From the NCBI RefSeq assembly GCF_005239135.1, contig NZ_QKNX01000003.1, positions 248,001 through 312,000 of the forward strand: a stretch of 64,000 nt of DNA. The letters are read 5' to 3'. The DNA is from Natronomonas salsuginis. Its GTDB lineage: Archaea; Halobacteriota; Halobacteria; Halobacteriales; Haloarculaceae. Made by a program: the position numbers and the translations under genes. Of this stretch, positions 10,629 through 47,740 are shown piece by piece (position 1 is the first letter of the stretch; every line of letters starts with the position of its first letter). The notes below the pieces were generated by a model. That model ran no database searches. It was not told where the DNA came from and saw nothing but the letters and a program-made list of their open reading frames with translations.

Positions 10629-11413
10629 CGCGAAAGGACGACTACTACAACCGGGCCAAACAGCAGGGCTACCGATCGCGGGCGGCCTACAAGCTCAAAC
10701 AGCTCGACGAGGATGCGGGCCTGATTGGCGACGGCGACACGGTCGTCGACCTCGGAGCCGCACCGGGCGGGTGGCTCCAGGTCGCCAAAGAACTCGCGGG
10801 CGAGGGCGGCACCGTCGTCGGCGTCGACCTCCAGCGAATCAAGCCGATCGACGGCGTCGACACGATCCGCGGCGACATGACTGACGCCGAGACGCGAGAG
10901 AAGATCGTCGCCCGCGTCGGCGGCGGGGAGACGGACGCCGAGGGCGACGGCGGCGTCGACGTCGTCATCTCCGATATGGCACCCAACATGACCGGCGAGT
11001 ACTCGTTGGACCACGCCCGCTCGGTGTATCTCGCCCGGACGGCGTTCGAGACGTCGCTCGATCTGCTCGCGCCCGGCGGTGACTTCGTCGCCAAGGTGTT
11101 CGAGGGCCCCGACACGAACGACCTCCGAGCCAACATCGACCGGGAGTTCGAGTACGTCCGGACGATTCACCCGAAGGCCTCGCGCGATTCGTCCTCGGAG
11201 CTGTACATGGTCGCGAAGGGGCGGCTAACTGCGCCGGTCCGCGAGGGCGACCGCGTCGACGTCGAGATCGAAGCCGTCGGTAGCGAGGGCGACGGGATCG
11301 GGAAGATCGAGGGCTACACGCTGTTCGTCCCCGACGCCGAACCGGGCGACACCGTCGAGGTCGAGGTGACCGACGTGAAGCCGCGGTTCGGGTTCGCCGA
11401 ATCGGTCGAATGA
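10625..11413 (+). CDS. rlmE: 23S rRNA (uridine-2'-O)-methyltransferase RlmE/FtsJ with C-terminal TRAM domain
   Basis: The 262-residue protein begins MTRKDDYYNRAKQQGYRSRA, the usual FtsJ N-terminus. The SAM-binding motif is VVDLGAAPGGWLQVA, and the K-D-K-E catalytic set is represented by Lys in AYKLKQLDE, Asp in ISDMAPNMTG, Lys in FVAKVFEG and Glu in SSELYMVAKG. Residues ~205-262 are a TRAM domain (VEIEAVGSEGDGIGKIEGYTLFVPD), an RNA-binding module attached in the haloarchaeal form. It 2'-O-methylates large-subunit rRNA in bacteria; the archaeal target is inferred. Confidence 0.94.
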   Translation: MTRKDDYYNRAKQQGYRSRAAYKLKQLDEDAGLIGDGDTVVDLGAAPGGWLQVAKELAGEGGTVVGVDLQRIKPIDGVDTIRGDMTDAETREKIVARVGGGETDAEGDGGVDVVISDMAPNMTGEYSLDHARSVYLARTAFETSLDLLAPGGDFVAKVFEGPDTNDLRANIDREFEYVRTIHPKASRDSSSELYMVAKGRLTAPVREGDRVDVEIEAVGSEGDGIGKIEGYTLFVPDAEPGDTVEVEVTDVKPRFGFAESVE

Positions 11414-11455
11414 CCGTTCCCGACCGCTGAAGTGCTCCGGAGGCGAGACGAACGC

Positions 11456-12388
11456 ATGGCCGACGAACCGCACCCCCAGCTGACACGCATTCTGGAGCTG
11501 ACTGCCGACGCCCCCAATTTCGAGGACGTGGGCGTCGCGGAGGCGCGCGAGGCGTTCGAGGCGATGGCGTCGTTCTCGCCCACGTTCGAGGTACACGAGC
11601 AGTACGACACGACGGTCGCCGGGGCCGACGGCGACCTCGACGCGCGGGTGTATCGCCCCGGCGAGGGCGACCGTCCGATTCTCGCGTTCTTTCACGGCGG
11701 CGGCTTCGTCATCGGCGGGCTCGACACCCACGACAACGTCTGTCAGCGGCTGGCGGCCGAAAGCGGTTGGACCGTCGTCTCCGTCGACTACCGGCTGGCC
11801 CCAGAACACCCGTTTCCGACGCCGCTCGAGGACGCCTACGCCGCGGTCGAATCGATCGCCGACGACCCGGAGCCGTTCGGTGGCGACGGCACGGTCGCGG
11901 TCGGCGGCGACAGCGCCGGGGGAAACCTCGCCACGGGCGTCACGCTCTTGGCTCGCGACGCCGCCGCGCTCGACGACGACGCCCCCGACATCGACCACCA
12001 GCTGCTGTACTACCCGGCGTGCGGGTCGCCGTTCGAATCCTACGGGAGCCGCGAGGAGAACGCCGAGGGCTACTTCCTCGAGCGATCGACGATATCGTGG
12101 TTCGACGAGCAGTACGTCCAGTCACCGACGCACGCGCGAAACGAGTACCTCGCGCCGCTGCTCGTCGAGGATCTCTCCGAACTGCCCGACGCGACGATCG
12201 TGACGGCCGGCTTCGACCCCCTTCGCGACGAGGGGATCGCGTACGCCGAGGCGCTCGAAGCCGACGGCGTCGCGGTCGAGCATCGCCACTACGAGTCGAT
12301 GATCCACGGGTTCGTCAGCTTCATCGGACGCGTCGACGCGGCCGAAGACGCGATCTCGGTCGGTGCGGCGGCGCTCGATCGGCGCTGA
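11456..12388 (+). CDS. Alpha/beta hydrolase, hormone-sensitive-lipase (HSL) family esterase
   Basis: The 310-residue protein carries FFHGGGFVIGG (oxyanion-hole HGGG motif), GGDSAGGNLA (nucleophile Ser in GDSAG), GFDPLRDEG (catalytic Asp) and MIHGF (catalytic His), i.e. the full HSL triad. A cap region covers residues 1-60. ATG 11456 is chosen over an upstream GTG because a GGAGG Shine-Dalgarno-like element lies about 13 nt upstream. It probably hydrolyses short acyl esters; natural substrate unknown. It converges with proA, with adjoining ends (12388/12389). Confidence 0.92.
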   Translation: MADEPHPQLTRILELTADAPNFEDVGVAEAREAFEAMASFSPTFEVHEQYDTTVAGADGDLDARVYRPGEGDRPILAFFHGGGFVIGGLDTHDNVCQRLAAESGWTVVSVDYRLAPEHPFPTPLEDAYAAVESIADDPEPFGGDGTVAVGGDSAGGNLATGVTLLARDAAALDDDAPDIDHQLLYYPACGSPFESYGSREENAEGYFLERSTISWFDEQYVQSPTHARNEYLAPLLVEDLSELPDATIVTAGFDPLRDEGIAYAEALEADGVAVEHRHYESMIHGFVSFIGRVDAAEDAISVGAAALDRR

Positions 12389-13738
12389 TCACTCCCCGGC
12401 GCGTCGCCCGGGCGTCCAGTCAGTGTCGAGATCGCGGTGGGTGAACGGGAGCGCGTCCTCGCCCGCGTACGTCGCGACGAGGTGGCCGTCGCCCTCCAGA
12501 TAGTACTTGTACGTCGTCAGCCCCTCCAGCCCGACGGGGCCGCGGGCGTGGATCTTGCCGGTGGAGATGCCGACCTCCGCGCCGAGACCGTATCGATAGC
12601 CGTCCGCAAAGCGCGTCGAGGCGTTGTGGAAGACGCTCGCGGCGTCGATCCCGGTCATGAACGCCTCGGCCGTCTCGGCGTTCTCCGTGAGGATCGACTC
12701 CGTGTGCTTCGAGCCGTTCGCGTTGACGTGCTCGATCGCGTCGTAGACGTCGGAGACGAGCTTGATCGACAGTTCGAGGTCGCCGTACTCGGTCCGCCAG
12801 TCCGCCTCAGTCGCCTCGCCGATATCCACGATTTCGCGCGTCGCCGCGTCGCCGCGGAGTTCGACGCCAGCCGCCTCGTATCGCTCGACGAGTCCCGGCA
12901 GGAACTCGCTCGCAACCGATTCGTTCACCAAAAGCGTCTCGACGGCGTTGCAGACCGCCGGGTACTGCACCTTCGCGTCGAAGGCGACGTCCTCGGCCAT
13001 CGAGAGATCAGCCTCCTCGTCGACGTAGACGTGGCAGACGCCCTCGGTGTGACCCAAGACGGGAATCTGTGTGTTGTCCTGAATGTAGGAGACGAACTCC
13101 GAGGATCCGCGGGGCATCACGAGGTCGACCTTGTCGTCCAGTTCGAGCAGACGGTCGACCTCCTCGTGGGCCTCGATCAGCTGCGCCCAGCCCGCCGGCA
13201 GGGTCTCGAAGCTCCCGTCAGTCGCCTCGCGGATGATCCGGTACAGCGTCCGATTCGATTCGTTGGCCTCGCTGCCACCCTTGAGGATCACCGCGTTCCC
13301 GGACTTCAGCGCGAGGGCGGCGATCTGCACCAGCGCGTCGGGTCGGGATTCGAACACCGTCGCGATCACGCCGATCGGAACCGCGACCCGATAGAGTTCC
13401 AGCCCCTCGTCGAGTTCGCGCGCCGAGAGCGTCGCCCCGAGGGGGTCGTCCTGCTCGGCCACCGACTCGACCATCCCGGCGATGTCGTCGAGCTTCGACG
13501 CGTCGAGCTTCAGCCGATCGACGAGCGCCTGGGTGTACTCGCCGCGTTCGAGCATCGCCTCGGCCTCCGTCACGTCCTCGGCGTTGGCCGCGAGGACCTC
13601 TTCCTCGTGCTCGTGGATGGCGTCGGCGATCGATCGCAGCGCCGCGTTCCGATCCGCTTCGTCGACGTTCGCGAGGCGCAACGCGGCGCGCTGTGCTTCC
13701 GTCACCTGTCCGTCCGTGTCGTGTTCGTTGTCGCTCAT
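12389..13738 (-). CDS. proA: Glutamate-5-semialdehyde dehydrogenase (gamma-glutamyl phosphate reductase)
   Basis: Second step of proline synthesis: NADPH reduction of glutamyl-5-phosphate. The 449-residue protein shows the family blocks VPIGVIATVFESRPDALVQIAALALKSGNAVILKGGSEA, the catalytic Cys in YPAVCNAVETLLV, and GLGAEVGISTGKIHARGPVGLEGLTTYKY near the C-terminus. It is the last gene of a proC-proB-proA operon on the minus strand, 33 nt after proB. Confidence 0.96.
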   Translation of the reverse strand: MSDNEHDTDGQVTEAQRAALRLANVDEADRNAALRSIADAIHEHEEEVLAANAEDVTEAEAMLERGEYTQALVDRLKLDASKLDDIAGMVESVAEQDDPLGATLSARELDEGLELYRVAVPIGVIATVFESRPDALVQIAALALKSGNAVILKGGSEANESNRTLYRIIREATDGSFETLPAGWAQLIEAHEEVDRLLELDDKVDLVMPRGSSEFVSYIQDNTQIPVLGHTEGVCHVYVDEEADLSMAEDVAFDAKVQYPAVCNAVETLLVNESVASEFLPGLVERYEAAGVELRGDAATREIVDIGEATEADWRTEYGDLELSIKLVSDVYDAIEHVNANGSKHTESILTENAETAEAFMTGIDAASVFHNASTRFADGYRYGLGAEVGISTGKIHARGPVGLEGLTTYKYYLEGDGHLVATYAGEDALPFTHRDLDTDWTPGRRAGE

Positions 13739-13771
13739 CGGTTTACGTGTCGATCGGTGTCGTGTTCGCGC

Positions 13772-14620
13772 TCACTCATCTTCCTCACCGTTTATCGGGA
13801 CGAATATGGTTCCGGCCGACTGTTCGGTGGCGATGCGCTCCAATACGTCCGGCTCCGCCGATCCCGCGATGATCGCCGGGATGCCGTACTCGCTGACGTC
13901 GCGCGCGCCCTCGACTTTCGTGCGGATCCCGCCGAAACCGGCGGTCGTGCTCTCCTGTACTAGCCGCTGGACCGCGTCGTAGTTCGCGCCCACGGCGTCG
14001 ATCAGTTCGGCGTCGCCGTTCTCCTTCGGATTGCCCGTGTAGACGCCGTCCACGTCCGTCAGCGTCACGAGCAGATCGACATCGAGACCGATCGCCACCG
14101 ACGCCGAGAGCATGTCGTTGTCGCCGATCCGGAGCTCCTCGGTCGCGACCGCGTCGTTCTCGTTGATGATCGGGACGACGCCCCACTCCAGCAGCGTCTC
14201 GACCGTGTTCCCGAAGTTCGTAAAGCGCTCCGGGGTCTCCAGATCCTTCCCCGTCAGGAGGATCTGCGCGACCGTCTGGTCGTACCGCTCGAAGCTCTGG
14301 GTGTAGTGGCGCATCAGGTGGCTCTGCCCGACGGTCGACAGCGCCTGGCTCTCCTCGATCACCTCGGTCTCCTGGTCGAGCCGCCCGCGCCCGGCCCCGA
14401 CCGCGCCCGAGGAGATCAGGATGACGTCCTTGCCCCGATTGCGGAGGTCCATGATGTCCGCGACGAGCTTGTCGAGCTTCACCCGATCCAGCCGCGAGTC
14501 CTCGTCGGTCAGCGAGTTGGTGCCCGCCTTGACGACGACGAGCTCGGCCTCGGCCGCCAGTTCCCGCGCCTGCGAGACAGTGCGAGGATCGACCGCCTCG
14601 ATGGTGGCTGTCTCACTCAT
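13772..14620 (-). CDS. proB: Glutamate 5-kinase (no PUA domain)
   Basis: First step of proline synthesis: ATP-dependent phosphorylation of glutamate. The 282-residue protein is an amino-acid kinase with [47 protein letters not shown] and [23 protein letters not shown]. It lacks the C-terminal PUA domain of the E. coli enzyme, so it is about 85 residues shorter. The start overlaps the proC stop by 8 nt. Confidence 0.96.
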
Positions 14621-39326: not shown

Positions 39327-40550
39327 TCACACCCGGTCGATCGGCCCCTCGTCCCGCGCCTCACCGAGCGAGAACGGCGACCGCTCGGCGAGGAGTCGAA
39401 GCGGGAGGACGAGGTAGTAGATCGGGTGGAGCGCGCCCGGCAGGGGCACGAGTCGGTACTCCGAGAGCCCCGGGTGCAGCCGCGAGTGGTACAGCACGGT
39501 TCGCAGCGAATCGCCGACCGAGTCGGTCGCCCGCGCCGTGTAGGCGACCCGATCGCGCCGCTCGGGGCGGGTCGTCCGCTCCGCGCAGAGCTCCTCGACG
39601 GCCGCCGCGGCGAGGCGATCGGCGCGCGAGTCGGCCTCGACACGCGAGCGAACGGCGTCGGGAACGGATACGTCGAAGAGCCGATCGATCAGCGCCGCCC
39701 CGATGAGCAGCCGTCTCTCGTCGCCGTGCCGCCGCGCTTCCGCGAGCAGATCCGGCCAGTCCACGTCGGTCGCCGCCAGTGCCGCGACGAAGTCGCAGGC
39801 CCACTTCAGGAGGTGCCACTTGTGTTTGGTGCCGTGAAACGCCAGCATTCGGAGCCGATCCTCGGGGGCGAGCGCGGGGACGTCGTAGCCGGCGACCGCG
39901 ACCGTCTCCCGGCGCTCCCAGCACGTTTCGACGTCCGGCGCGAACGGCTGGTCGGCGTCGCCGATGCGCCACCGAACCTCGACGTTCGCCCGGTCGCGCT
40001 GCAGTTCGTACTCGGCCACCAGCGGCTTCGTGAACGGCCCGCCAAGGATCGCCGCGTCGTCGAGTCTCGGCGCGTCCACCCACTCGTACCCGGCGGCCTC
40101 GAGCACGTCCACGGCCGCGGTAACGTCCTCGCGAGGGACGAGGACGTCGAGGTCCCCGTACGCGCGCATTCCGATCTCGCCGTGGGCGAACGCTTCGAGC
40201 ACCGGCCCCTTGAACGGGAGCGCGCGAACGCCGCGCGCCTCGAACGCTTCAAGGAGTTCGCGAAGCTCCGATGCGGACCGGATGTTGCGCATCGCGGTCG
40301 ATCTGGTCCGCTCGGTCAGCGCCGACCGAACGCGCTCCGGAACGCCGATCCCGGCTTCGGACGCGTCGAGCTCCTGTACGCCCCGGTTCAAAAGCGGCGT
40401 GACGCCGTGTCGCCGGCCTAGCTCGAGGACTCGATCCCAGTCGGGGTCTCGGGCGAGCACCGCGTCGAGGCGCTCGCCCGTCGCCACCGCACCGTCGGGT
40501 CGGACACACCGCGCGAGGAGTTCGAACTCCGGGGTCGCCTCGGTCAACAT
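39327..40550 (-). CDS. NTP_transf_5-type nucleotidyltransferase of a lasso-like cluster
   Basis: The 407-residue protein has a nucleotidyltransferase core: LPFKGPVLEAFAHGEIGMRAYGDLDVLVPREDV, with the G...R.YGDLDVLV metal motif at ~residues 125-150, followed by a helical C-terminal region. This family (PF14907-like) recurs in lasso-peptide clusters that also contain a HprK-like kinase. Its start overlaps the kinase stop by 7 nt. It may add a nucleotide or phosphate-related group to the peptide; reaction not established. Confidence 0.85.
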   Translation of the reverse strand: MLTEATPEFELLARCVRPDGAVATGERLDAVLARDPDWDRVLELGRRHGVTPLLNRGVQELDASEAGIGVPERVRSALTERTRSTAMRNIRSASELRELLEAFEARGVRALPFKGPVLEAFAHGEIGMRAYGDLDVLVPREDVTAAVDVLEAAGYEWVDAPRLDDAAILGGPFTKPLVAEYELQRDRANVEVRWRIGDADQPFAPDVETCWERRETVAVAGYDVPALAPEDRLRMLAFHGTKHKWHLLKWACDFVAALAATDVDWPDLLAEARRHGDERRLLIGAALIDRLFDVSVPDAVRSRVEADSRADRLAAAAVEELCAERTTRPERRDRVAYTARATDSVGDSLRTVLYHSRLHPGLSEYRLVPLPGALHPIYYLVLPLRLLAERSPFSLGEARDEGPIDRV

Positions 40551-41482
40551 GTGTCTTCGAGGTCCCCGATCACTCGCTCGACGAGCCGCGGCAACCCCCC
40601 GAGATTGCGCGGCCGTCGGAGGCGTTTGACGTCGACCGCCGCCGCGAGTTTGGCGCACTGACCGAAGTTCGAGACCGCGGTCGCGTCGTCCGAAAGCAGC
40701 CCGGCAGTGTAGGTGTTCTCGATCAGTTTCATCATCCGCATCTCGGGGCTGAACCCCGCGACCTCGAAGCGCTTGCCGTCCTCCAGCACGTAGACGCGCT
40801 CCAGCCGAACCGGTTCGGACGGCTGCTCGTACGGAAGCGGATGGAAGTGTCGCTCCCGCGCGTCGCTGATCCCCCGAGGCTCGCCGACGGGGACGTCGAA
40901 GCGGTCGACGACCGCCGGATCGAGTTTGATCGCGGGATAGCCGCCGCGAACCGCGGCCCCGTCGTCGCCGAACGCGATCGTCGCCACGTCATCGCTCAGG
41001 ACTCGGTACCCATCCAGCAGGAAGGCCATCGCGGTCGTCGTCTTCCCCTGCCCGGATTCGCCGAGGAAGGCGACCGCGGAGCCCTCGACGTCGACGACGC
41101 TCGCGTGCAACACGAAGTGTCCGCGCTGGTGAAGCAGATGGTTGAACGCCGGCCCGAGGACGACGTGTCTGAGGACCTCGTTCGGCACGTCCCCCTTCGG
41201 AGCGACGACGATCTCGCGCCCGTCCCGAACCGCGACATCGACGACCTCGAACGTCAGATAGTACTCGTCAGGGCCGACGTACTCGATCGTCCCCTCGTCG
41301 GCCCTCGCGCCCTCGGGTCGACCGATCTCGCCCACGGTGATCGTCACGTCCGCTTGCTCGCCCGCCGATCCGTCTCGTCTCGGAAGCTCCGGGAGGTCGA
41401 GATCCGAACGAACCGTCAGCCCGAATGCGGCGTACGACGGGGTCGCGGTCGCTCTCACGGGGGACACCTCCCGTCTCCGCAT
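40544..41482 (-). CDS. HprK-like kinase, probable lasso-peptide tailoring kinase
   Basis: The product (~312 residues) has an N-terminal sugar-metabolism-type beta domain and a C-terminal HprK-like kinase with the P-loop AFLGESGQGKTTTAMAFLL, catalytic-type VLSDDVATI and PEMRMMKLIENTYTAG. Kinases of this family in bacterial clusters (PadeK, ThcoK) phosphorylate the C-terminal Ser of the lasso precursor. The precursor encoded next door ends in Ser. ATG 41482 is used; TATA-like CATAAATATA lies at ~41570. A GTG at 41458 is an alternative start. Confidence 0.85.
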   Translation of the reverse strand: MRRREVSPVRATATPSYAAFGLTVRSDLDLPELPRRDGSAGEQADVTITVGEIGRPEGARADEGTIEYVGPDEYYLTFEVVDVAVRDGREIVVAPKGDVPNEVLRHVVLGPAFNHLLHQRGHFVLHASVVDVEGSAVAFLGESGQGKTTTAMAFLLDGYRVLSDDVATIAFGDDGAAVRGGYPAIKLDPAVVDRFDVPVGEPRGISDARERHFHPLPYEQPSEPVRLERVYVLEDGKRFEVAGFSPEMRMMKLIENTYTAGLLSDDATAVSNFGQCAKLAAAVDVKRLRRPRNLGGLPRLVERVIGDLEDTC

Positions 41483-41707
41483 CGCTCGGTTGATACTCCG
41501 TCGACCCACGCACGCTCGCTGGCGTCCACCCACATGCGCTACGTCTATCACCTCGGTCGAGTATATTTATGCGCTTGATAACTCGCGGTTTCGCATGCCG
41601 GCGCGCTCCCGTGTTCGACTGCAAAAATGGTGTCCGTGTAGGGTGTGGAGCGCGGACTGGTCCTGCGAATCAGCCCGAGCGTCCATCGGCGGCCGCGTTA
41701 CGACCGA

Positions 41708-41818
41708 TCACGACTGCTCGTTGTAGTTGTTGTCACCGTAGCCGCCGTCGTCCATCGATTCGGAGAGCTCCTCGACGCTCCCGTACGTTTCGACCGTCGG
41801 TGCTGCGTAGTCTTCCAT
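41708..41818 (-). CDS. Putative RiPP (lasso-like) precursor peptide, 36 aa
   Basis: ATG 41818 gives a 36-residue peptide that starts MEDYAAPTVETYGSVEEL and ends in Ser (GDNNYNEQS). The leader fits the lasso YxxP...G....L[ST] pattern bound by PqqD-like RREs (Tyr and Pro three residues apart). If cleaved after LSE the core is SMDDGGYGDNNYNEQS: Ser1 and Asp9 could form a 9-residue macrolactam, leaving a 7-residue tail ending in a phosphorylatable Ser. A longer frame to ATG 41857 is possible; a TTATAA box at 41860..41865 fits the shorter form with a ~17-nt leader. Confidence 0.72.
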   Translation of the reverse strand: MEDYAAPTVETYGSVEELSESMDDGGYGDNNYNEQS

Positions 41819-41966
41819 GGGTTTGACACCCACATAGCACTCATCCAGTACTATCATTGTTATAACCTCTATTCGATTATTGTCTCGCTCAGTAGAACGT
41901 GCTTTCTTGGATACTTTCACCGCTTCTAATGTATACACGCGGCCGCCGCCGGTACCACACGCTCCC

Positions 41967-42251
41967 CTACGGCTCGATTTCGACGAGTTCCTCGTCGGCC
42001 ATCGTCCGGACGAACTCGAGGACATCTCGCTCACAGGTCTCGGCCGGCACGTCGTACTCCTCCGTGATCGTCTCCACGATCCGCTGCACCGTCGTCGGCT
42101 CTTGGAGCAGTTCCCAGACTCGGGGGCCGACGCCGGTGAGCCCCTGATACATCCCCGTGTCGGTGTTGAGAAGCATCAACTCGCCGTCGACGGTGGTCGT
42201 CGTCGGGTGATCGCTCGCCGTAACGGTCGTGGTCGTGTCGACTGCGGACAT
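41967..42251 (-). CDS. PqqD-family RiPP recognition element (lasso B1-like)
   Basis: The 94-residue protein has the PqqD/RRE pattern: GELMLLNTDTGMYQGLTGVGPRVWELLQEPTTVQRIVETI followed by VPAETCERDVLEFVRTMADEELVEI. In lasso biosynthesis this B1 protein binds the YxxP leader and hands it to the B2 protease. It is directly upstream of the precursor gene on the same strand. ATG 42251 is preferred over 42278 (Arg-rich extension). Confidence 0.9.
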   Translation of the reverse strand: MSAVDTTTTVTASDHPTTTTVDGELMLLNTDTGMYQGLTGVGPRVWELLQEPTTVQRIVETITEEYDVPAETCERDVLEFVRTMADEELVEIEP

Positions 42252-42388
42252 GCGCTTCCGTCGGCACGGATGCATCATAGTTATTCATCGATTACGACAC
42301 GTCTCAGTCGGAGGCTCTCCTCGACTCGTGTTAGTCGCGCTCTATAACAACTTCATAACTATCCTGTGGTACTCGCAGGTACGCGTAT

Positions 42389-44197
42389 ATGACGGAGCCG
42401 GACATCTCGACGACCGAAAAACTGCGCTCGTTGCAGGCGGTCGCTCACCACCGCCCAGTGTTCATGGGCTTCGTACTCGTGTTGAGTCTTCTCGGCACGC
42501 TGCTCGAAGGGATCGGACTCACGTTCCTGTTCCCTATCATCGAGGCCGCCCAGGCCGGCGGCGATGCGGCGCAGAACGCCGGCGGTGTCACGGGGCTCTT
42601 CCTCGAGGCGTATCTGGCGCTCGGGCTCCCGTTCACGCTCGAGTTTTTGATCGGCGGGCTCGCGGCCGTCATGGTCGTTCGATACTCCGTGACGTTTCTC
42701 TCGAGTTGGCTTGCGTCGATGCTCACCGTCGAGTACGAGCGGTACCTCCGGACGCACGCCTACGAACTCGCCTTGGGCGCGACCGTCTCCTATTACGATG
42801 ACGAGGGATCAGACGACATTCTGAACGCTATCATCACGCAGACGCAGTACGCCAGCGGAGCCATCCAACAGATCCTCTCGCTCGTCCAGCAGACGCTGTT
42901 GTGTCTGATGTACGCGGCGATCGCGCTCTTCATCGCGCCCGCCCTGACGGTGCTAGCCACTGTCGTCTTCGGCGGTTTGACGTATCTCATCCGTCACGTG
43001 ATCGAACCCGGCTACACCGTCGGCGATCGGGTCGCGAGCGCGAACGAGCGCGTCCAGGAGAACGTCCAGGCCGGCACGCAGGGAATCCGTGATATCAAAC
43101 TGTTCGGGATGACCGAGCATCTCCTCGAAGAGTTTCACGAGATCGTCGATCGATACACGACCTCTCGGATCGCGCTGTACAGAAATCAGATCGCGATCGG
43201 AAGCTTCTACGAACTCAGCGTGGCGATCGTCCTGTTCGGGCTGATATACGTCGCGATCACGTACCTCGCGCTGTCGATCTCGGCGCTCGGCGTGTTCCTG
43301 TTCGCCATGTTCCGCCTCGGTCCGCGGATCAGCGGTCTGAACTCGGCGATCTACGCCATCGAGGGGAACCTGCCGCACCTCGTCAGAACCCACCGTTTCG
43401 TTGATCGGCTGGCGGACAACCAAGAGCCGGACGACGGAACGCGGCCGGCACCGGATCGAATCGACACCGTCGAATTCGACGACGTGTCGTTCGCCTACGA
43501 CGACGGTGAGATCGTCCTCGACGATATCTCGCTCCGTATCGACCGTGGCGAGTTCGTCGGGATCGTCGGCCCCTCCGGGGCGGGCAAATCGACGATCGTC
43601 TCGCTTTTGGCTCGGACCTACGATCCGACCGACGGGGAGATCCGAGCCAACGGTACGCCGGTCGAGGAGTTCGACCTTCGCGAGTGGCGCGACAACGTGG
43701 CGATGGTGCGACAGGACCCCCACATCTTCAACGACACGCTCCGGTACAACCTCACGACCGGCCGGGACGTCCCTGACCGCGATCTAGAACGTGTCTCCGA
43801 GGTCGCACAGATCGCGCACTTTCTCGACGATCTCCCGGCCAGCTACGACACTGTCCTCGGGGACAACGGCGTGAAACTCTCCGGTGGACAGCGCCAGCGC
43901 GTCGCGCTCGCTCGCGCCCTGTTGAGCGATGCGGAGCTTTTGATCCTTGACGAGGCGACGAGCGATCTCGACTCGGATCTCGAACGGCGCATCCACGAGA
44001 CGATCGAACGCCTCGGGGACGACCGAACGGTCGTCGCCATCGCCCACCGGCTCTCGACGGTCCGCGGTGCCGATCGCATATACACGGTCGAACACGGTCG
44101 AATCACCGAATCCGGTACCCACCACGACCTGATTCAAAACGACGGGAAGTACGCGCACCTCCACTCAATACAGGACGGCAGCATCGAGCACGCCTGA
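42389..44197 (+). CDS. ABC transporter, fused permease-ATPase (probable peptide exporter)
   Basis: The 602-residue protein has six membrane helices (residues ~25-320) and an ATPase domain with Walker A GIVGPSGAGKSTIVSLL (~394), signature VKLSGGQRQRVALARALL and Walker B LLILDEATSDLDSDLE, ending in the H-loop AHRLSTVRGA. It is the D-type exporter expected of a lasso/peptide cluster. It is divergent from the PqqD/precursor operon; TTCATAACTATC centred about 30 nt before ATG 42389 is its promoter. Confidence 0.92.
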   Translation: MTEPDISTTEKLRSLQAVAHHRPVFMGFVLVLSLLGTLLEGIGLTFLFPIIEAAQAGGDAAQNAGGVTGLFLEAYLALGLPFTLEFLIGGLAAVMVVRYSVTFLSSWLASMLTVEYERYLRTHAYELALGATVSYYDDEGSDDILNAIITQTQYASGAIQQILSLVQQTLLCLMYAAIALFIAPALTVLATVVFGGLTYLIRHVIEPGYTVGDRVASANERVQENVQAGTQGIRDIKLFGMTEHLLEEFHEIVDRYTTSRIALYRNQIAIGSFYELSVAIVLFGLIYVAITYLALSISALGVFLFAMFRLGPRISGLNSAIYAIEGNLPHLVRTHRFVDRLADNQEPDDGTRPAPDRIDTVEFDDVSFAYDDGEIVLDDISLRIDRGEFVGIVGPSGAGKSTIVSLLARTYDPTDGEIRANGTPVEEFDLREWRDNVAMVRQDPHIFNDTLRYNLTTGRDVPDRDLERVSEVAQIAHFLDDLPASYDTVLGDNGVKLSGGQRQRVALARALLSDAELLILDEATSDLDSDLERRIHETIERLGDDRTVVAIAHRLSTVRGADRIYTVEHGRITESGTHHDLIQNDGKYAHLHSIQDGSIEHA

Positions 44198-44219: not shown

Positions 44220-44651
44220 TCACGGTGGACAGTACGTATCCAACGGCCGAAATCTGGCGTGTTCGTCGAGTTCGCCGATCACGATCTCCCCGCGACGCTC
44301 GACCCACGCGTGGGCTTCGAACTCGTCGTCTTTGGCCACGCCGAGGTGGATCTGCGTTCGGTACCCGTTCACCGCGAACAGCCGCTCGCCGACGAGCGCA
44401 CGCATGAGACACGAAAAGTAGATCGGGATGTAGGCGTCCGTAACCGCGACTACCCACGGAATCGTGTCCGGATCGCGTACGGACGCGTAAGGCGGGAGGA
44501 CGCGAACGAGCCGATCGAGCGCCCGGTGGGTCCAATCCAACCTGACGAGGGTGAGCAACGCTCGACTCGTGAGGAGTAACACCGTCGTCGTTCCGAGTAA
44601 GAGCAGCTCACCCCGGGATAACGAGACGAGTTTACGAGCTGTGGTGATCAT
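44220..44651 (-). CDS. Transglutaminase-like leader peptidase (lasso B2-like)
   Basis: The 143-residue protein fits lasso B2: an N-terminal hydrophobic stretch (LLLLGTTTVLLLTSRALLTLV), then PIYFSCLMRALVGERLF (catalytic Cys), and VAKDDEFEAHAWVERRGEIVIGEL (catalytic His in AHAW). B2 proteases cut the leader at the RRE-bound precursor. It converges with the ABC exporter gene, 22 nt apart. It begins in a TAATG overlap with a 27-residue ORF. Confidence 0.88.
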   Translation of the reverse strand: MITTARKLVSLSRGELLLLGTTTVLLLTSRALLTLVRLDWTHRALDRLVRVLPPYASVRDPDTIPWVVAVTDAYIPIYFSCLMRALVGERLFAVNGYRTQIHLGVAKDDEFEAHAWVERRGEIVIGELDEHARFRPLDTYCPP

Positions 44652-46984: not shown

Positions 46985-47740
46985 TCATAGATCTGGAAGG
47001 TGCGAACGGCGCTGTTCAGCCTTCTGTCGCTCCGATCGGCGATCGTAGTGTTTGTCGAGGACCTTCTCGCTCGCATCCATCCGATCGCTCACCACCGTCT
47101 TGTCGACTTCCTTGATCCTGTAGTAAGTGAGCCTCCCACTTCGGAAGTCGTGCGGGGAGCGAGCTGACGGACAGCGACTTCGCTTTCCCACCTCGGTTGC
47201 CTCACACGTCTCGATCTCGCGATCGTGCGGACACCCGTCCCCGTACCAGCACGGGCGAGAGACCTGGTACATTTTGGTTCGAATCGAGCTATGGGTCATT
47301 CGTCCGTGCTTGGTCGAAATCAGCGGCTCTCTCCCGTGTTCATCGTAACTTTCGACCCGCTGGTCGCTGATGTAGTCATCGAGCACTCGAGCAACGCCGG
47401 CACTGATGCTGTTCCAGCGCTCGCTCTTGTGCTTGTTCTTCAGCGGCGTTCCTTGATCTGGCCGATGGACGAACTTGATTCCCGGTCCCGTGGCATTTGG
47501 CCGATCTCCTTCGAGATCGAGATCGTCGACGTCGAGCAGCTGTTCGTTGAGTTTGTCGAGCGAGTGGCGAGCGAGACAGGTTTTGCCTGCACCGGAGGGA
47601 CCGACGAGGAGCGCATCCTGCGGTGTACCGTCTTCGACAACGGGCTCGAGGGCGGCGGCGAGCCGATTCATCTGCTCGTGTCGGTGGACGATCTCGCGGG
47701 GGATGAACTCGTCTTGGAGTACCCGCGCGTCCTGTATCAT
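46985..47740 (-). pseudogene. Chimeric Orc1/Cdc6 N-terminus fused to tyrosine-integrase C-terminus
   Basis: The 251-residue frame begins like Orc1/Cdc6 (FIPREIVHRHEQMNRLAAALEPV and Walker A LLVGPSGAGKTCLAR) and, around residue 73 (LLDVDDLDLEGD), switches to the C-terminal half of a haloarchaeal tyrosine recombinase: HGRMTHSSIRTKMYQVSRPC, CPSARSPHDFRSGR (HxxR box) and LDKHYDRRSERQ (nucleophile Tyr). The first catalytic Arg, normally in GLRW-DDLDL, is lost at the junction, and Walker B, sensors and the DNA-binding domain of Orc1 are gone. A deletion fused two genes in frame; neither function should survive. Confidence 0.85.

Follow-up and report, generated by a model that had tools for sequence, protein, structure and literature searches.

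A short minus-strand gene in the 64-kb haloarchaeal DNA stretch analysed here (the window) probably encodes a RiPP precursor, its product being a linear peptide and not a lasso; the peptide would be exported and is likely to be phosphorylated. The gene, its leader, the accompanying gene set and the intact catalytic residues of the encoded enzymes are all present, and this genome has no recognisable cyclase; because a lasso-type pathway is thus found with its knot-forming enzyme missing, a straight peptide is the most likely outcome. From the gene set we infer the chemical steps and their order, the linearity and export of the product, and a possible role as signal or antagonist. The conservation of this arrangement suggests that lasso-type machinery can work without a cyclase as a stable archaeal lineage, which lies outside the Bacillota, the stated limit of the only linear counterpart described.

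The precursor gene

The precursor gene and its parts lie at the following positions.

41708..41818, minus strand: precursor peptide gene of 36 codons plus stop, recognised from its open reading frame, from homologous precursors beside the same genes (in Haloarcula, in a genome of the window's own genus designated G120, and in genome G396) and from synonymous-only variation in the leader
41759..41818, minus strand: leader of 20 residues, MEDYAAPTVETYGSVEELSE, with Y(-17)xxP(-14)xV(-12) and S(-2), from an anchored comparison of 39 distinct precursors, the cleavage point being placed by the BsfA spacing
41711..41758, minus strand: predicted core of 16 residues, SMDDGGYGDNNYNEQS, placed by leader spacing
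41859..41865, minus strand: promoter-like box TTATAAC (TATAACA), 41-47 nt before the ATG, from comparison of upstream regions

The reading frame at 41708-41818 translates to MEDYAAPTVETYGSVEELSESMDDGGYGDNNYNEQS, followed by a stop, and the 36 residues divide into MEDYAAPTVETYGSVEELSE and SMDDGGYGDNNYNEQS. The original prediction had read the peptide correctly as YAAPTVETYGSVEELSE plus SMDDGGYGDNNYNEQS, leaving out the initial three residues, MED. A second in-frame ATG lies upstream, at 41857; nonetheless, 41818 is the likely translation start, since most close relatives begin with M-[E/K]-[D/E]-Y and since both the TATAACA box and a G-rich..ACCC stretch stand at fixed spacing before this ATG. 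The TATAAC box occurs at nearly the same distance from the ATG in the window and at eleven Haloarcula loci, and a similar CATAACA is found in G120. The open reading frame is not a chance occurrence, given that the leader pattern appears once in the 64-kb window and in none of 50 shuffled windows. Across ten Haloarcula species, the leader of the orthologue has six variable codons, all synonymous, and the core protein differs at its last residue alone; judged from these sequence comparisons, the precursor gene is real and under selection.

The start of the core was counted as 17 residues past the leader Tyr, and the 39 distinct precursors were anchored on that basis. In BsfA, the leader element YxxPxL occupies -17 to -12, i.e. 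Y(-17), P(-14) and L(-12) (PMC10368454). The lasso-leader element YxxPx[L/V/I] occurs in the window precursor at exactly this spacing, which bears out the Tyr/Pro arrangement originally proposed, and the positions given for Ser1, Asp9 and the C-terminal Ser16 also hold when counted from Y(-17). Residue -2 is Ser in the window precursor and Thr in the other 38 of 38 distinct precursors.

Neighbouring genes and proposed pathway

The genes surrounding the precursor are as follows.

39327..40550, minus strand: NTP_transf_5 protein (PF14907, 3.6e-59), nucleotidyltransferase-like (NTP5), by annotation like PsmN/LppN
40544..41551, minus strand: HprK-like kinase, its start within the reading frame uncertain (matched by Hpr_kinase_C of Pfam and HprK_rel_A of NCBIfam, in each case under the cut-off)
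41967..42278, minus strand: PqqD-family leader-binding protein (RRE, B1; PF05402 1.1e-19; NF033536 71.8 bits, cut-off 80; TbiB1 (5v1u) 8e-16)
42389..44197, plus strand: MsbA-like ABC exporter (PF00005/PF00664; MsbA/HepA-type models)
44220..44651, minus strand: lasso B2-type leader peptidase (NF033537 71.5 bits, cut-off 33; PF13471)

The B1 and B2 proteins expected of a lasso cluster are both present, with NF033537 and PF05402 above cut-off and NF033536 slightly under it, and the B2 gene is displaced to the far side of the exporter gene. With PqqD, B2 and exporter around it, the gene fits its original description as one for a RiPP precursor whose leader is of lasso type, and the kinase said to be encoded next door is indeed HprK-like and retains the catalytic His-Lys-Asp-Asp set (H149, K170, D187 and D188, in columns that are invariant in 48 relatives). 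In B2, C81 and H114 are intact (Cys/His invariant in 39 relatives), and in NTP5 residues G115, R129, D133 and D135, numbered from MLTEA, are invariant. The AlphaFold2 model of NTP5 (pLDDT 86.8) has a nucleotidyltransferase core whose nearest structures are ANT(2'')-Ia and MenT1 (over 163-179 residues, at Z about 13 and rmsd about 3); the sugar-phosphate transferase FKRP ranks lower. As modelled, the fold is that of an ordinary NTase and does not settle the substrate. Against known structures, the PqqD protein scores 61 bits with TbiB1, 46 bits with 9x90 and 36 bits with 9x8z, the last two being PqqD-family chains. Elsewhere in the window, at 46985-47740 on the minus strand, a truncated Orc1/Cdc6-like reading frame, matching over only about its first 70 residues, suggests a remnant of a mobile replicon.

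In the proposed pathway, PqqD would bind the YxxPxV leader and present the precursor, the HprK-like kinase would phosphorylate the core at a hydroxyl side chain, for which Ser16 and the Tyr residues are candidates, and NTP5 may cap the core phosphate with a nucleotide or sugar, hexoses on phospho-Ser having been proposed for PsmN (PMC9266682). B2 would then cut the leader after ...ELSE, and the exporter would release a linear 16-residue peptide. The kinase and NTP5 could instead act on something besides the core, and B2 and the RRE might serve further substrates.

Absence of a lasso cyclase

No Asn-synthetase-like lasso cyclase is found in the cluster or anywhere in the 64-kb window. Across the whole genome (99.94% complete), a PF00733 profile search returned partial matches to other proteins only, a haloarchaeal lasso cyclase used as query returned one fragment (5.6e-4, in a short chromosomal protein at C4:183 kb), and the NF033535 lasso-cyclase profile returned 0 matches; on these searches, a cyclase supplied in trans was rejected. 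The NF033535 profile scores above cut-off in 7 of 7 cyclase-bearing comparison genomes and in 0 of the 16 cyclase-free ones. Several Haloarcula genomes contain longer Asn-synthases that score well under the NF033535 cut-off and are encoded at a distance from the cluster, in most cases on a different contig, and the near-complete Haloarcula genomes G020, G027 and G037 contain no full-length PF00733 match.

Two further candidates were set aside. At the G120 locus (L029, 11414-13400, minus strand), a frameshift-broken asparagine-synthetase-like gene has the precursor array on one side and the exporter on the other; this AsnB-like gene begins MCGIAG and falls far below the NF033535 cut-off. NTP5 is not a substitute adenylating cyclase, because cyclase-bearing clusters have NTP5 too. 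Ring closure by some enzyme of unrecognised type, encoded at another place in the genome, is still conceivable.

A cyclase-free haloarchaeal lineage

Relatives gathered by family- and class-level searches and from fetched loci fall into two groups, cyclase-bearing and cyclase-free. The latter comprises 17 clusters in sixteen haloarchaeal genomes, none of the 17 with a lasso cyclase: the window, G120, eleven Haloarcula (five species by name, the remaining loci assigned by their common genus code), G396, G400 (twice) and G451. In a tree of five concatenated proteins, 16 of the 17 form one clade (support 100/99); the G451 cluster, L074, is a long branch outside it in the free tree, and a single clade for all 17 is not rejected (p 0.17). 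The cyclase-free arrangement is thus kept as a haloarchaeal lineage.

Within this lineage, G120 has three tandem precursors, with cores such as QGYDDGYGDNGGGGAD; the Haloarcula core is WWDHDDGYGKWS, with variant WWDHDDGYGKWD at L041 and WWHDDGYGKWD in Har. salina; and the G396 core is DEHYGHDEEY. One of the two G400 clusters carries six tandem precursors (L057, G400:C1:1656000-1675900, at 10726-14429) whose leaders are nearly identical and whose 8-12-residue cores differ, an array that looks like core diversification. At L074 (9035-9178, plus strand), the core reads R, about 19 glycines and PIGYGQ, whether genuine or an assembly effect, and a motif search at L031 gave no precursor. At a separate locus, L067 (G212:C2, 9125-10423, plus strand), an HprK-like kinase adjoins a precursor-like reading frame with Trp/Asp/Gly repeats (WGWGDDD); a search nearby for PqqD, B2 and cyclase found none. 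The bacterial plasmid matches examined, from Thalassobaculum and Paracoccus, carry an Asn-synthase-type gene.

Ring, remnant or linear peptide

Core length separates the two groups: cyclase-free cores have mostly 8-17 residues (two in L074 have 22 and 26), and cyclase-bearing cores, such as NDKIGNGEDQYSGATSLTGSIV, have 22-32. A threaded lasso needs more than the 8-10 residues of the shortest cores. An acidic residue at core position 7-9 is present in 8 of 18 distinct cyclase-free cores, the window's included, and is absent from the Haloarcula core; its occurrence in 9 of 21 cyclase-bearing cores means that it is not a clean marker there either, that set conserving a Lys-to-Asp spacing at variable distance from the leader. 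Terminal Ser is found in only 3 of the 18 distinct cores; counted by peptide, it occurs in that of the window, in 9 of 11 from Haloarcula and in that of L056. The residues D, F, V, Y, E, L, T, P and Q also occur at the terminus among relatives. The window core is the only one of the 18 to combine both features.

These comparisons bear directly on the nine-member Ser1-Asp9 macrolactam of the original prediction, which was to be refuted by relatives that conserve the leader but neither the acid at 7-9 nor the terminal Ser. Such relatives were found and, no cyclase being present here or among them, the ring is unsupported. A true lasso with that ring and a seven-residue tail, closed by a cyclase acting from elsewhere in the genome, does find agreement in the leader spacing, B1 and B2, in the fit of Ser1 to Asp9 and in the recurrence of D9 in two of the three G120 peptides; it is nevertheless very unlikely, as the sole Asn-synthase-like match in the genome is the weak one to the short chromosomal protein, the cyclase is missing clade-wide, and related cores have 8-11 residues or no acid at 7-9. 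Leader and B1/B2 matches are, by themselves, insufficient for calling a lasso peptide. Loss of the cyclase from a lasso cluster that has since decayed to a non-functional remnant would accord with the displaced B2 gene and the frameshifted AsnB-like gene of G120, but is less credible still: the remaining enzymes are intact, with catalytic residues invariant across many species, the precursor is under purifying selection behind a conserved promoter, and precursors have been duplicated into arrays of three (G120) and six (L057).

The possible phosphate acceptor

Within the linear reading, the residue that would be phosphorylated is a narrower matter. The terminal phospho-acceptor Ser originally proposed is present here and in most Haloarcula peptides but is not conserved across the group, so that Ser16 is best described as a possible site. 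Phosphorylation there in the manner of PadeK/PsmK (PMC9266682), with Asp serving as a fixed negative charge where Ser is missing, is a plausible minority reading: Haloarcula cores that do not end in Ser end in Asp, which occurs in two separate lines, and no other final residue is seen in the genus. Against this, the G120 cores, from the same genus, end in F, V and D, most others end in neither Ser nor Asp, and the kinases are intact in all.

Among hydroxyl residues, Tyr is retained most widely, occurring in 17 of 18 distinct cyclase-free cores. Ser and Thr are both absent from 8 of these 18, a situation met in 0 of 21 cores from cyclase-bearing clusters (Fisher p 0.0007 if relatedness is ignored, the cores being related and the counts not independent). 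Kinases from lines with Ser/Thr-free cores retain every catalytic residue, and the terminal Ser/Asp difference in two separate Haloarcula lines leaves Tyr as the sole core hydroxyl there. The kinase might then target Tyr (that of GYG) rather than Ser, giving a phosphotyrosine that may be nucleotidylated or glycosylated. This proposal is tentative and on the doubtful side, because the characterised kinases of the HprK-like RiPP type all modify Ser, which is the C-terminal residue in PadeA and Ser3 in both BsfA and LppA, and because LppK accepts neither Tyr nor Thr in place of Ser3 (PMC13381572); moreover, the retention of Tyr may have a different cause, and the leader Thr/Ser could be the acceptor. 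It is unlikely, though conceivable, that these genes represent a class of short linear haloarchaeal RiPPs with lasso B2 processing, a kinase moved to Tyr, an NTase-capped phosphotyrosine and a near-invariant, secreted Haloarcula peptide possibly serving as a signal. As culturable Haloarcula species carry a 12-residue core that is identical except at its last residue, the product, its modification site and its role are directly testable.

Comparison with known systems

The closest known system is that of the 'linear polyphosphorylated peptides' (LPP), described in 2026 from the lpp cluster of Paenibacillus alginolyticus as restricted to Bacillota, in which a cyclase-free RRE/HprK/NTP-transferase/MsbA pathway was demonstrated to yield a linear phosphopeptide (PMC13381572). 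The window shares with LPP a discrete RRE, an HprK-like kinase, an NTP transferase, an MsbA-like exporter, a YxxPxV element, variable cores and the lack of a macrolactam cyclase. The leader protease, however, is a lasso B2 cysteine peptidase rather than the SipW-like signal peptidase LppS; no SipW-like peptidase (TIGR02228) was found within 12 kb of the cluster, the nearest match in the genome being about 44 kb off, and a nearby LPP-type signal peptidase was accordingly rejected. The leaders, YxxPxVxxYGxVEExT in the window group and YxxPxVLxHQxIxFETxxS in LPP, have YxxPxV alone in common; the cores have mostly 8-17 residues as against 45; Ser at core position 3, the LPP phosphate site, occurs in 0 of 18 cyclase-free cores; and the hosts are haloarchaea rather than Bacillota. 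The window RRE also scores nearer to the lasso protein TbiB1 than to 9x8z, the 2026 PqqD-family chain that we take to be LppB. With LppS, the LPP leader consensus and Ser3 absent, the system is most safely filed as an archaeal, B2-processed variant that is LPP-like in its working but not a member of LPP.

The phosphorylated lasso peptides paeninodin, pseudomycoidin and BsfA share with the window B1, B2, a His-Lys-Asp-Asp kinase, an NTP transferase, an ABC exporter and the leader spacing (PMC9266682, PMC10368454); unlike them, the window group has no cyclase, conserved ring acceptor or conserved terminal Ser. The kinase matches PadeK/ThcoK-type enzymes in its catalytic residues but not in the conserved terminal Ser of their partner precursors (3 of 18 here). 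Cyclase-bearing haloarchaeal lasso clusters, e.g. that of the Halopiger xanaduensis plasmid (L070), have homologous B1, B2, kinase, NTP5 and ABC proteins and a leader of like type, but differ in their NF033535-type cyclase, in their 22-32-residue cores with a GS pair and in forming a separate clade. Cores at L058-L064 and L070-L075 mostly follow [ND]KxG....D[EQ][YFW][ST] with GS close to the C-terminus, at varying distance from the leader. Among the open-licence literature, a paper on Haloarcula hispanica Boch-4, which does not report a precursor, the absence of a cyclase or a wider lineage, lists an antiSMASH RRE-dependent RiPP cluster with B1, B2 and kinase, whose nearest known cluster, on the Halopiger plasmid, is 18% similar (PMC10093198); this is probably the same cluster as the cyclase-free one of Haloarcula.
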